A stretch of 64,000 nucleotides of DNA from Heliorestis convoluta (GCF_009649955.1 NZ_CP045875.1:1903501-1967500); one strand, 5' to 3'; counted from the stretch's first letter, positions 1,362-6,466 are shown. A program made the numbers and translations. Notes: a model not told the origin generated them from the sequence alone.

Positions 1362-2519
1362 ATGAAAAGAATCATTGCTGTAATGGTTGTAATGATGTCT
1401 ATACTAATGGCGGCCCTTACGATTGTTACAATCCAGAAAGGCACTGTAGAAAATGCCTACGCATCAACTTTCAAGGAAGACGGCACGAAATGGCGCATCG
1501 GTTATTGTGAAAGTGAAGATTTTATCACTTTTACCGAAACGCTCATAGGCATTGTACATGGTCTTGAAGAACTTGGATGGATTCGTAACCTCGACGGCTT
1601 CGATATTGTTGCGTATACTCGCGATAGCAAAGCTATATGGAATTATTTAGCGAACAGGGATATAGGCCCTTACATAGAGTTTGTCGACGATGGTTTTTAT
1701 AACTTAAGAGATGAAGGCGTCACACCCGAAGACATCGTCGATAGATTACAAAGAAATAAAGACATCGATCTTATGCTCGTCATGGGAACTCAAGCAGGCA
1801 TTTCTTTAAGTACTGATGACCATGATACCAATATTTTTGTTTTTGCTGCTTCTAATGCAGTTCGCTCTGGGATCATTGATTCTGTTGAAGATTCGGGGAA
1901 AGACCATGTTTGGGCTCACATGGACGAACAGCGTTTTGAACGACAAATTAAAGCATTTCATGACATTGTACAGTTTGAAAAAATAGGTATGGTTTATGAA
2001 GACTCTGACATTGCTAGAGTTTATTCAGCCGTCAATGAAGTTGAGAAGCTTGCCAAAGACAAAGGCTTTGAAATCGTCCGTTATCATGTTGACGAGCCTC
2101 TACGGTCTGAGGAGTATTCTCGCTATTATCAAGAAGTTCAAGAGGCTTACAATCAATTGGCGCAAGAAGTTGATGCTGTTTTCGTCACCATTGCTTCACT
2201 AGAGAGTGATAAATTACCAACATTGTTTACGCCTTTTTATGAAAAAAAAATACCTGTATTTTCCCAGCTGGGCAATATTGAAGTAGAACATGGCGCTCTT
2301 ATGACCATTTCAGTGATGGATGAAGTCAACCTTGGTCGCTTCGGTGCCGATACCATCGGGAAATACTTAGAAGGAACGAAGCCTCGTGATCTGGAACAAT
2401 CTTTTCAAGTTGCGCCAAAAATCATACTGAACGCAGAAGTTGCACAAAAGATAGATTTTATGATCCCTTTTGAATTAATTATTGTAATCGACGAAGTCTA
2501 TGAAAATATTGCCAAGTGA
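1362..2519 (+). CDS. ABC-transporter-type substrate-binding protein (PF04392-like)
   Basis: This 385-residue protein begins with a signal-anchor-like segment (residues about 4-24, ending near NAYAS) and continues as a two-lobed periplasmic-binding fold of the ABC_sub_bind type. Supporting features are the IGYCES strand, the LMLVMGTQAG segment near residue 145, KIGMVYEDSD near 210, VDAVFVTIAS near 275 and KIPVFSQLGN near 300. No lipobox cysteine is seen, so it is secreted or membrane anchored by its N-terminus. The ligand cannot be told from sequence; relatives bind amino acids or other small molecules. No permease or ATPase gene lies nearby. Instead a GNAT enzyme and a sensor-fused MFS carrier follow on the same strand, suggesting a solute-sensing role. 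The ATG follows an AAGGAGG-type site. Confidence 0.8.
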   Translation: MKRIIAVMVVMMSILMAALTIVTIQKGTVENAYASTFKEDGTKWRIGYCESEDFITFTETLIGIVHGLEELGWIRNLDGFDIVAYTRDSKAIWNYLANRDIGPYIEFVDDGFYNLRDEGVTPEDIVDRLQRNKDIDLMLVMGTQAGISLSTDDHDTNIFVFAASNAVRSGIIDSVEDSGKDHVWAHMDEQRFERQIKAFHDIVQFEKIGMVYEDSDIARVYSAVNEVEKLAKDKGFEIVRYHVDEPLRSEEYSRYYQEVQEAYNQLAQEVDAVFVTIASLESDKLPTLFTPFYEKKIPVFSQLGNIEVEHGALMTISVMDEVNLGRFGADTIGKYLEGTKPRDLEQSFQVAPKIILNAEVAQKIDFMIPFELIIVIDEVYENIAK

Positions 2520-2558
2520 GCTTGCAATCAATCGCTATTATTGAAGGGATTTGAATAA

Positions 2559-3272
2559 ATGCTAGAACAGGGAAGAGTTTTGAATCAGCAAGATCAACAA
2601 TGGTATCCTTATATAATTCGCCTACTCGCCAAGGATGATCTGCCTCAAATTCTGGGCTTACAGGATTTTATCCTTTCTTTTCTTGACAATAAAAGTTACT
2701 TTGTTCCTTTATCTCGAGAGGAACATATCGATATCATCATTGGCAACGGAGAATCCATTGGCTTGTTCATTGGGGACAAGCTCTATGCTGTTTGCTCTAT
2801 ACTTTTTCCTGGACTTAGAGAAGTTAACATGGCTCGAGAACTGGACTTTAACGATGAAGAATTGTTACAAGTTGCTCAACTTGAGCTTTCCATGGTTCAT
2901 CCAGATCTAAGGGGTAATAACTTGCAGAGTAGACTCGCTCAAATGCTGGCCCAAAGGGCAGAGAATGCGATGCAATACAAGCATTTATTTACAAGCATAT
3001 CACCTTATAACTACCCCAGTCTTAAAACGGCTACGTCGATTGGCTTGAAAATTGTAAAATTATGCAAGATGTACTGCCAATGGGATCGATATGTTATGTA
3101 TAAAGACTTAGAGAATCACTGGGAAATAGATCGAGACACCATTCTTCAAGTACCTATGGATTGCTTAGAAAAACAACAAGCCTTATTAGAAGATAGATTT
3201 TTTGGATTTACGCAATATAAAGATGACGAAGGTGTAAAGTTGATTTTTGCTAGGAAAGGAAAGGAATGGTGA
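2559..3272 (+). CDS. GNAT-family N-acetyltransferase
   Basis: The protein has 237 residues and the GNAT layout: an N-terminal IIRLLAKDDLPQI segment, central strands around YAVCSILFPG, and a motif A region LSMVHPDLRGNNLQSRLAQ near residue 115, where the RGN turn contacts acetyl-CoA in this fold. The segment TSISPYNYPSLKTATSIGLK is a typical motif B. The acceptor substrate is unknown. It lies 39 bp after the binding-protein gene and slightly before or overlapping the MFS gene, so the three are probably one transcript. The C-terminal 60 residues are not recognisable and could be family specific. Confidence 0.75.
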   Translation: MLEQGRVLNQQDQQWYPYIIRLLAKDDLPQILGLQDFILSFLDNKSYFVPLSREEHIDIIIGNGESIGLFIGDKLYAVCSILFPGLREVNMARELDFNDEELLQVAQLELSMVHPDLRGNNLQSRLAQMLAQRAENAMQYKHLFTSISPYNYPSLKTATSIGLKIVKLCKMYCQWDRYVMYKDLENHWEIDRDTILQVPMDCLEKQQALLEDRFFGFTQYKDDEGVKLIFARKGKEW

Positions 3273-3276
3273 TAAG

Positions 3277-5682
3277 TTGAGTGGCAATTGGAATAACAAA
3301 ACAGATATTGTTCGTGAATCGACTGAATCAACCGAACCGACGGAATCATCGGAGCCAAAAAGAACCAGAAAAGCACGTTATAAAATATTAGCGCTGGCCT
3401 TACTCTTGTTAATGGCTGTTATGGCCTTTGGTGGTTCCTTAAACTACATGACTTTTGCTGATAACTATAATAAATCGTTAGCAAATACCTATGCTGTTGC
3501 GGGAAACGAACTCGTTCGAAAAATCGAATATGCACTACAATATGGCAAACCGATTGATAACTTTTATGGCATGCATGAAACGTTAGCTGAGCTGAAAGTA
3601 GTCATCCCAGAAGTTGAGAAGGTAAAAGTTGTATCAACAGAAGGCGAGGTTTTATATGATTTATTCGGGTTTGTTCGCGATCAAAGGTTGCCTGATGAAC
3701 TGCAAAAGGTTGTAGTTTTTCAAGAAGGAGCCCTTAATGATAAGACGAGTTATCGTTTTTATGACGATAGTGGATACATATTCTTAAAAATTACAGACGA
3801 TAAAATGGAACATATTGCAAGTCTCGCAATGGTTCTTCCTGACAACATCTTCTTGCAATTTAATAGTCACTACACAAAACAATTGGGTACCTATCTACTA
3901 GGGTTTGCAGCCATTGCTTTATTAGTCTTATTCATCATACTTTTTAAAACCAATCTATTGTCGATAGACAATCGTTTCAACAAAAAAAGATTCTTACTTG
4001 TATTTATTGTTGTCTTAGGTTCAGTTCAACTCTTCTATAGCGCTGTTAACTATTCAGTTTTTAAAAACGCTTACATAGATATGGCTTATAAAAGTAAAGA
4101 CTTTGTCGAAGAAACAATTGCAAATAATATAAATAGCGTTTACGACAAAGGAATAAGCTTACAAAATGTAAGCGGTCTCGATCACTATATAACAGCCATA
4201 GAATCAAGCTTACCACAAATTAAAGAAATCACCTTTGTCGAATCAAAGGATGCTATCGATAGGGAAGGTCTAACAATCGTCAGATCCAAAGACTCTCTGC
4301 AAAGTAGCACAATCTCTGCAACCATATCCAATGTCTATATTGACCAAGAAATGTATAAGATTCTCTTAGATATGGTTACGGTACTGATTGTTTCTATTTT
4401 CTTTATGGTCGAGTTAATCTTGTTTGCCGTTCTCATACTTGTCCGCCAAGATCAAGAAAAGAAAAAAATAAATAATAAGATGGATGTTAATACGAGTCAT
4501 GGTCTCGTTAGAACATTAACCTTTCTAGTGAACATACCGATCTTTATGTCCATTACTTTTATCCCGATTGTAATGCAAAATTTATATGAACCGATTCTAG
4601 GATTGTCGAAAGATGTGGTTCTAGGCTTACCACTATCGGCGGAAATGCTAGGAGGCATTCTAGCTATCATCCTTGCTGGTTCTTTGGTTGATAAAAAAGG
4701 GTGGAGGGCTGTTTTTTACGTAGGTATCTTATTCTTGGCACTTGGAAACTTTGCATCTGGATTTAGTATGACAGCAATTGCCTTTGTTCTTTCTAGAGCC
4801 GTCGTTGGTTTTGGTGTAGGTCTTATTCTCATGTCTTTACGTAGCTTGGTCGTCTCGTTACCCGAAAGAAATAGTGCCATTGCTGAGTTTGCATCCGGTG
4901 CGATTGCTGGATTGAACTGCGGTGCTGTTATCGGTGGTATGATGTCTGATCGAATTGGTTACGATGCAGTTTTTTTCATAGCTGCTATAACGGTTGTACT
5001 TTCTGTTTTGTATACAAATAGACTTATGGGTGGCTTTGAAATAGAGGAACGAAAAACGAGTGATGCTACTGCATTACATAAATTCATTAACTTTATATAT
5101 GACAAAAAGACAATTGTCTTCCTCTTGCTCGTTTTTATCCCTTTTTTCATTGGAGGGGCTTTTCTCGACTATTACTTCCCTCTATTTGCATCGAACAACG
5201 GTCTTTCCCAAAGTGATATAAGTCGAGCTTTCTTATTAAATGGTCTCTGTATTATTTACCTTGGTCCTTTACTGACTCGCTATGCAAGTAACCGGCTCGG
5301 TACCATAAATGGTATGCTCTTTTCTTTGTTCATTATCGTTTGTGCTCTTGCTGTTTTTATGCTTTTCGGCACTCTCGCTGCTGCTTTGGTAACGATTGTT
5401 CTACTCGGCATGGCCGAAAGCTTTGGCGTTTCGATGCAAACGAACTATTTTTTGAACTTAAAAGGAGTCCGAGACTTAGAGATAAGCAAAGGAATTGCTT
5501 ATTTCAGTATCATGGTTAACTTAGGAAGAATGGCTGGCCCTATCATCTTTGGTGTGGCGTTGTCTTTCGGTATGAAAATGGGCGTGGGTCTGATTGCCCT
5601 GGCTTTACTTCTTTTACTAATGGGATTTGTAGTGCTTTCTAAGGTTAGACCCGAGTATATCAATGAGAGCAAGATAGGTTAA
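3277..5682 (+). CDS. MFS transporter fused to two extracytoplasmic sensor-like domains
   Basis: A TTG at 3277, in frame with another TTG at 3247, follows an AAGGAATGG stretch and starts four bases after the GNAT stop; the upstream TTG would overlap that gene. The 801-residue product starts with a Glu/Ser/Thr-rich tail. It then has a membrane helix (about 36-54), an extracytoplasmic segment of some 150 residues, two helices (about 206-224 and 238-262), a second loop of about 100 residues, another helix (about 363-390), and from about 411 a complete major-facilitator domain of roughly 12 helices. The two loops resemble Cache-type ligand sensors in size and placement. Ordinary MFS carriers have about 400 residues, so this is a double-length fusion. 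Transport substrate is unknown; coupling to the upstream binding protein is an inference. Confidence 0.75.
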   Translation: MSGNWNNKTDIVRESTESTEPTESSEPKRTRKARYKILALALLLLMAVMAFGGSLNYMTFADNYNKSLANTYAVAGNELVRKIEYALQYGKPIDNFYGMHETLAELKVVIPEVEKVKVVSTEGEVLYDLFGFVRDQRLPDELQKVVVFQEGALNDKTSYRFYDDSGYIFLKITDDKMEHIASLAMVLPDNIFLQFNSHYTKQLGTYLLGFAAIALLVLFIILFKTNLLSIDNRFNKKRFLLVFIVVLGSVQLFYSAVNYSVFKNAYIDMAYKSKDFVEETIANNINSVYDKGISLQNVSGLDHYITAIESSLPQIKEITFVESKDAIDREGLTIVRSKDSLQSSTISATISNVYIDQEMYKILLDMVTVLIVSIFFMVELILFAVLILVRQDQEKKKINNKMDVNTSHGLVRTLTFLVNIPIFMSITFIPIVMQNLYEPILGLSKDVVLGLPLSAEMLGGILAIILAGSLVDKKGWRAVFYVGILFLALGNFASGFSMTAIAFVLSRAVVGFGVGLILMSLRSLVVSLPERNSAIAEFASGAIAGLNCGAVIGGMMSDRIGYDAVFFIAAITVVLSVLYTNRLMGGFEIEERKTSDATALHKFINFIYDKKTIVFLLLVFIPFFIGGAFLDYYFPLFASNNGLSQSDISRAFLLNGLCIIYLGPLLTRYASNRLGTINGMLFSLFIIVCALAVFMLFGTLAAALVTIVLLGMAESFGVSMQTNYFLNLKGVRDLEISKGIAYFSIMVNLGRMAGPIIFGVALSFGMKMGVGLIALALLLLLMGFVVLSKVRPEYINESKIG

Positions 5683-5830: not shown

Positions 5831-6466
5831 TTAGCGAATAAAGTTCGTTAGAGTCTTCTTGACCTTTTCAGGTCTTTCTACAACGCCTTCGCCTTTTTCA
5901 ATTAACTGTAGCAACCAGGCCATATTTTCTCCTAGAAGACGCAGGATTTGTAGGCCTTCTTCATCTTGCAATACTTCGCCAGGCTTCATGCCGTGAATAA
6001 CATTCCAATAGTTCGATGTGGCCATGACCATTTCAGAATAGGTGATGTAATTGTTCAGTTGTTCAAAAGTCGTAACGCCACCGGAACGTCTTACAGCGAC
6101 GACAGAAGCAGCGACTTTGTGTCGAAGCATCGATTCATTGACAGAGGCAACAAAGCAAGCCCTGTCCAAAAAGGCCTTCATCGTTGCACCGATAGAAGAA
6201 AAATGAACGGGTGAACCAAAGATAATACCGTCGGCTTCTTTCATTTTCCCGATCCATTCGTTTACTTCGTCACCTGGGGTTACACATTTTTCATCTCTAT
6301 TTCTGGCGCAACCATGACAAGCGAGGCAACCTTGAAGCGTTTTGTTGCCTACATGGACAATCTCAACGTCAATGCCTTTTTTCTCTAGTACTTCGGCGAC
6401 GATTTTGATGGCGTGGTATGTGTTTCCTTCTTTTCTGGGACTGCCGTTAAAAGCTACTACCTTCAT
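5831..6466 (-). CDS. Flavodoxin-like NAD(P)H-dependent FMN reductase / iron-sulfur flavoprotein family
   Basis: The 211-residue protein has the flavodoxin-fold start MKVVAFNGSPRKEGNT, whose GSPR-x-GNT loop binds the FMN phosphate. A cysteine group, CLACHGC followed by a further Cys at about residue 61, resembles the cluster motif of archaeal and clostridial iron-sulfur flavoproteins. The segment ADGIIFGSPVHFSSIGATMKAFLDR near 80-105 is the second FMN-binding region and is strongly conserved in the family. It probably moves electrons between reduced carriers and a small acceptor in the cytoplasm. The partner is unknown, and no operon neighbour shares its strand. It converges with the MFS gene. 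Confidence 0.8.
   Translation of the reverse strand: MKVVAFNGSPRKEGNTYHAIKIVAEVLEKKGIDVEIVHVGNKTLQGCLACHGCARNRDEKCVTPGDEVNEWIGKMKEADGIIFGSPVHFSSIGATMKAFLDRACFVASVNESMLRHKVAASVVAVRRSGGVTTFEQLNNYITYSEMVMATSNYWNVIHGMKPGEVLQDEEGLQILRLLGENMAWLLQLIEKGEGVVERPEKVKKTLTNFIR

Follow-up and report, generated by a model that had tools for sequence, protein, structure and literature searches.

Co-occurrence and sequence co-variation of a solute-binding protein and a sensor-bearing MFS protein, with an adjacent GNAT acyltransferase, in Heliorestis convoluta and other bacteria

Comparison of sequences across genomes indicates that a solute-binding protein (SBP) of the PF04392 family and an MFS protein with its own sensor region form a conserved, co-varying pair, which is usually accompanied by a GNAT-fold N-acyltransferase, often by a PLP alanine/serine-type racemase, and not by ABC permeases. 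In Heliorestis convoluta HHT, an alkaliphilic phototroph with a chromosome of 3,218,981 bases (PMC7143216), the pair and the acyltransferase are encoded together at positions 1362–5682 of the window, the stretch of 64,000 nucleotides that was analysed as a whole. We propose, with a probability of about 0.5, that the trio is one functional cassette, consisting of an SBP-controlled sensor-MFS, probably an exporter, and its own acyltransferase, and serving an N-acylated amino-acid-like solute.

The three genes and their products in the Heliorestis window

The original prediction placed genes for an SBP, an acetyltransferase and a double-length MFS protein side by side, and their adjacency is confirmed. 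The three open reading frames are intact, tightly spaced and arranged on the + strand in the order SBP (1362..2519, 385 aa), GNAT (2559..3272, 237 aa) and MFS (3277..5682), with 39 nt between the first two genes and 4 nt between the GNAT stop and the MFS start. The MFS protein has 801 aa counted from TTG 3277; the longest possible reading frame begins upstream, at TTG 3247. Both flanking genes, a YheC/D-type ATP-grasp gene upstream (289–1146) and an FMN reductase gene downstream (5831–6466), lie on the − strand, which leaves the trio as an isolated group on the + strand. A terminator scan between the trio genes gave no convincing candidate, and a promoter scan found sites no commoner than in shuffled sequence; judging by the gene spacing, the three genes may be co-transcribed. 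Downstream of the ATP-grasp gene there is a perfect 25-bp inverted repeat with a 6-nt loop (192–247), which is probably a transcription terminator, unusually long.

Each of the three products belongs to the type that had been predicted for it. Residues 131–375 of the SBP match PF04392 above the Pfam cut-off (E=1.9e-19), and comparison of its profile with the PDB gave 6hni (E=2.6e-17), 3lft (E=9e-16) and 3lkv (E=1e-15). The N-terminus is signal-peptide-like and has no lipobox; the protein is predicted to be secreted or membrane-tethered. It is the sole protein of its kind that the sequence search found in the Heliorestis genome, and a search of eight relatives from the family of the window genome, including one of its own genus, gave no SBP match at E<=1e-20. 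Relatives in other loci of the unit are 39–68% identical.

The GNAT fold of the second product was reached by structure modelling, Pfam giving only sub-threshold GNAT matches (18.8 bits vs. a cut-off of 25). With its AlphaFold model (pLDDT 68 overall, better over about residues 1–140), Foldseek returned many GNAT structures at a probability of 1.0 (best E=3e-9); as modelled, the product of 2559–3272 is clearly a divergent GNAT. Members of its subfamily in genome G380 and in Azospirillum B510 pass the Acetyltransf_1 cut-off. At the acetyl-CoA loop, canonically Q/R-x-x-G-x-G/A, the window protein reads RGNNLQ; RG is invariant in nine relatives, and the glycines are shifted or replaced. By profile comparison, the relatives are phosphinothricin-acetyltransferase-like.

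The "double-length" MFS protein with two extracytoplasmic loops is, more precisely, a normal MFS protein preceded by a separate two-module sensor. Its transporter domain (4441..5682, + strand) is of the 12-TM type and matches MFS_1 over residues 416–725 with E=3.3e-24 (85.9 bits vs. a curated cut-off of 33.4). The N-terminal sensor part (3277..4440, + strand) is resolved by hydropathy into two TM-ectodomain-TM modules, with extra TMs near residues 37–55, 205–223, 239–257 and 369–387 and ectodomains at about residues 60–198 (~140 aa) and 261–362 (~100 aa). Weak profile matches are consistent with a Cache fold of these ectodomains: one member of the sensor family matches sCache_like (E=6e-5), another single member matches dCache_1 (E=0.0035), and one histidine-kinase relative matches sCache_3_2 weakly. 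The AlphaFold model of the sensor part, made from a two-sequence alignment, had a pLDDT of 44 and was not used for fold search.

Conservation and co-variation of the pair

The survey of co-occurrence, which had been set beforehand as the test by which the unit could be refuted, covered 398 Bacillota genomes searched with profiles of the SBP and the sensor-MFS. The sensor-MFS profile detected 12 genomes, 10 of these at E<1e-20, and the SBP subfamily profile detected 11; the SBP and the strong sensor-MFS matches have 10 genomes in common (P=4.5e-19). Both genes lie on a single contig in nine of the ten, and the tenth genome has contigs of only 3–4 kb. Among the 14 loci compared, 11 have SBP and MFS genes at most 63 nt apart with no gene between them. 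In NHLP/Nif11 loci, about 15 kb separates the two within one cluster.

We observed a high correlation between the pairwise distances of SBP and MFS sequences (mirror r=0.975, 12 loci), which was reached in none of 5000 label permutations. The corresponding correlations with the GNAT, calculated for seven loci, were 0.92 for SBP–GNAT and 0.94 for MFS–GNAT (P about 0.004). Species history alone is insufficient to account for the co-variation of SBP and MFS, since genome G465 has two paralogous SBP–MFS pairs, one nearest the window type and the other nearest the G170 type, and the partners are kept within each copy.

Related loci were found in Bacillota, Acidobacteriota, Alphaproteobacteria and Thermodesulfobacteriota, i.e., in four phyla. 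When scored against the Bacillota profiles, the proteobacterial relatives reach 48–202 bits for the MFS sensor region and 316–404 bits for the SBPs, and the Azospirillum GNATs reach 92 bits. Among 247 searched genomes of a second phylum no additional member was detected, which makes the unit rare in that phylum. Overall, the idea that the three genes are a conserved unit, in which the SBP has an MFS protein and not an ABC transporter as its partner, is supported by their neighbourhood in all four phyla and by the co-variation of their sequences.

The third gene is less strictly tied to the other two. The seven strongest GNAT matches (E<1e-84) all come from SBP-bearing genomes; the subfamily is also present without the SBP–MFS pair, and in some loci of the unit other GNATs take its place, suggesting that the unit requires acyl transfer as such and not one particular enzyme.

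No ABC permease or ATPase gene is adjacent to the unit in the window or in the related loci. TrpY-type permeases match PF02653, and the window genome encodes three PF02653 permeases, all in branched-chain (Liv) and ribose systems that have SBPs of their own; the reading of the window SBP as an orphan component of an ABC system is therefore unlikely. The closest named family of the SBP is the tryptophan SBP TrpX (NCBIfam, E=1e-19). The window protein shares the fold family and the ligand-binding domain with the TrpX-type SBPs of ABC transporters and differs from them in its score (70.7 bits vs. an equivalog cut-off of 390), in the lack of a permease or ATPase gene in the trio and in having an MFS protein as partner. 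With TRAP and TTT systems it shares the pairing of an SBP with a non-ATP transporter, whereas the membrane partner in the window is an MFS_1 protein with its own sensor modules and not DctQ/DctM or TctA/TctB. Two further readings were rejected, namely a phage origin, with no relatives confirmed in viral contigs, and a defence system, with no PADLOC hit.

Neighbourhoods of the unit

The unit often stands beside export or injection machinery, including NHLP/Nif11 peptide, YcaO, contractile injection, T6SS and T3SS-type genes. The NHLP/Nif11 peptide clusters of Clostridia, in which the module is regular, contain the MFS gene, a type-1 binding protein, HlyD, one or two NHLP ABC exporters, a sigma factor and DUF7005, followed by radical SAM, UPF0489, GNAT, radical SAM and SBP genes; UPF0489 is a family that we take to include peptide arginases. 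In one such cluster, an 81-aa reading frame with a phage tail collar domain (L066:9081-9326, PF07484, E=6e-23) lies directly upstream of the sensor-MFS gene. Among the contractile-injection loci, those of G380 and G225 encode CIS12, CIS13 and baseplate proteins (Baseplate_J) beside the relatives, and those of G017, G066, G064 and G375 encode Pvc16_N and/or DUF4280 proteins. Genes for a HAMP-containing cyclase-like protein, a MORN-like repeat protein and Pvc16_N-type and DUF4280 (PAAR-like) proteins precede the unit at L013:14-6409, an arrangement that recurs in three related genomes (L013, L014 and L015).

Outside these groups the order of the genes varies. In G170 it is SBP-GNAT-MFS, as in the window, followed by a racemase. 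An Acidobacteriota MAG has YcaO-type and LuxE/LuxC-type genes, a cyclase, SBP-MFS-GNAT and a Ser/Thr kinase. Azospirillum plasmids have alr-SBP-MFS-GNAT with start/stop overlaps, and most of them also carry a cyclase and a TRAP-type SBP. In Nitratidesulfovibrio megaplasmids, a CesT chaperone gene accompanies an SBP-MFS pair with a 14-nt overlap, and a 595-aa protein without a Pfam match is encoded immediately after the pair (L105:19110-20897). The order in Aureimonas is T6SS genes, SpoIIE, SBP, GCS2 and MFS.

In the window genome, neither an NHLP exporter match above the cut-off nor a Baseplate_J protein was found, which gives no support to placing the window's trio in a RiPP or injection locus. 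Because the genome has neither system and the trio stands alone there, the unit can work without NHLP and injection systems.

The original prediction had left the target of acetylation as either the solute or a protein; the neighbourhoods favour an amino-acid-like solute. Alanine/serine-type racemases adjoin the unit in G170, G375, G380, G465 and Azospirillum, and in G246 the genes of a GNAT relative and of an NSAR-type racemase overlap, with an M20 amidohydrolase gene close by. This racemase, GNAT and M20 hydrolase layout resembles the N-succinylamino-acid racemase pathway, for which a GNAT producing N-acetyl- and N-succinyl-D-Phe/Tyr/Trp is on record (Sakai 2006, as cited in PMC8762209); unlike that pathway, the window trio has no adjoining racemase or M20 gene, and a shared GNAT activity is only putative. 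At L090:2049-8001 there are genes for an M20 amidohydrolase, an antiporter-like protein, a regulator-like protein, an NSAR-type racemase and a GNAT relative, which looks like the same pathway and offers a lead on the biochemistry of the GNAT subfamily. Subfamily GNATs are also found, in two phyla, alongside LuxE (acyl-protein synthetase) and LuxC-type (acyl-CoA reductase) genes (L085:4251-7744 and L011:3741-12412).

Proposed function and alternatives

In the mechanism that we propose, an amino-acid-like solute would be bound by the SBP on the outer side of the membrane, and docking of the SBP on the Cache-like ectodomains would alter the activity of the MFS protein. The docking is plausible by analogy with SBP-activated receptors of the BctC-BctE and LuxP-LuxQ type (receptors of this kind are described in PMC9602780) and because one genus has a kinase with the same sensor module whose gene overlaps a PF04392 gene. 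As in those receptors, an SBP gene stands in the trio beside the gene of a membrane protein with an extracytoplasmic sensor, and the module is common to histidine kinases; unlike in those receptors, the output domain is a transporter and not a kinase. The sensor-module profile matched histidine kinases along the full length of the TM-ectodomain-TM stretch (46.9 and 36.0 bits), and the reverse search with the kinase-module profile recovered the MFS protein of G170 (E=2e-12). Four histidine kinases with this module were found in the 398 genomes, two of which adjoin a PF04392-type SBP gene and two of which have no SBP neighbour; since the former two belong to the same genus, they represent only one independent case.

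The MFS protein is probably an exporter, and the small molecule that it carries would be N-acylated by the GNAT. Export is suggested by the company of secretion loci and by the exporter-like motifs in TM4 and TM5, where R507-x3-G511-x-G513 and the glycine ladder G541/G545/G553/G561 are invariant in 12 relatives and more conserved than the second ectodomain. Of the DHA-type exporter motifs, the arginine of motif B is invariant, the glycines of motif C are kept without the proline, and the acid of motif A is variable and lost in several proteins; export by proton antiport is thus a guess. The racemases, the NSAR-type racemase and M20 genes of G246 and the GNAT acting on D-Phe/Tyr/Trp argue for an N-acyl amino-acid-like solute; where a racemase is present, the D form would be made before N-acylation. 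The SBP–ectodomain pair may then report the outside level of the exported molecule or of a competitor's, and the unit would serve secretion and antagonism loci as a transferable accessory that stands alone in Heliorestis.

A reading that we consider rather unlikely is SBP-dependent uptake, in which the SBP hands a solute to the MFS protein for import and the GNAT acylates it in order to trap, detoxify or assimilate it. Uptake is the canonical role of SBPs, which serve it in the ABC, TRAP and TTT families (PMC9602780), and both the conserved SBP–MFS pairing and the phosphinothricin-acetyltransferase-like GNATs agree with it. However, TM5 with its many glycines and the arginine motif of TM4 are like those of drug/metabolite exporters, the neighbourhoods are export and injection loci, and simple delivery would not need two extra ectodomains.

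It is quite improbable that the protein is a pure receptor, with a non-transporting MFS domain that signals the occupancy of the SBP to partners in the cytoplasm, for example a cyclase, kinase or SpoIIE. Cyclases, a Ser/Thr kinase, a SpoIIE phosphatase or multi-domain regulators do adjoin several copies, the motif A acid is missing from several MFS proteins, and there are sensor-only paralogues of 351–361 aa, which we place in presumably Desulfitobacterium-like loci, the genus name being a guess; but conservation within the protein is highest in the MFS halves, and no signalling gene adjoins the trio in the Heliorestis window. Equally doubtful is the view that the trio is left over from an NHLP/Nif11 cluster and that its genes serve no common function in Heliorestis. 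Each of the three window proteins has its closest relatives in NHLP/Nif11 clusters with a UPF0489 gene, and the GNAT might be a peptide acylase like those acylating ornithine or lysine in selidamide pathways (PMC9505594), but the trio occurs without peptide-precursor or NHLP genes in the Azospirillum and G170 loci, and in the window its reading frames are all intact and its gene order is unlike that of the clusters.

An SBP-dependent MFS is not described in the SBP review (PMC9602780) or in a review of multicomponent transporters (PMC8276074), both of which name ABC, TRAP and TTT as the transporter families that use SBPs; this is a limited literature in which absence is not proof; the eCIS survey and the founding paper on NHLP/Nif11 make no mention of MFS or substrate-binding proteins, and a literature search on SBP–MFS fusions or transceptors with ectodomains found nothing relevant. 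Each component is of a known family, and the combination is apparently undescribed. A bolder version, which we regard as unlikely, would add the cassette to the SBP-dependent membrane systems as a fourth kind: an MFS protein gated or informed by an SBP on tandem Cache-like ectodomains would export a signal made by the GNAT, with or without a racemase, for example an N-acyl-D-amino acid, as a self-contained cell-to-cell signalling cassette repeatedly acquired by secretion, bacteriocin and injection loci.

In summary, the pairing spans four phyla and is found in the company of genes for bacteriocin export and contractile injection and of T6SS and T3SS-type genes. It may represent a new class of transporter or a new type of receptor, or else a signal input that several antagonism systems have in common.
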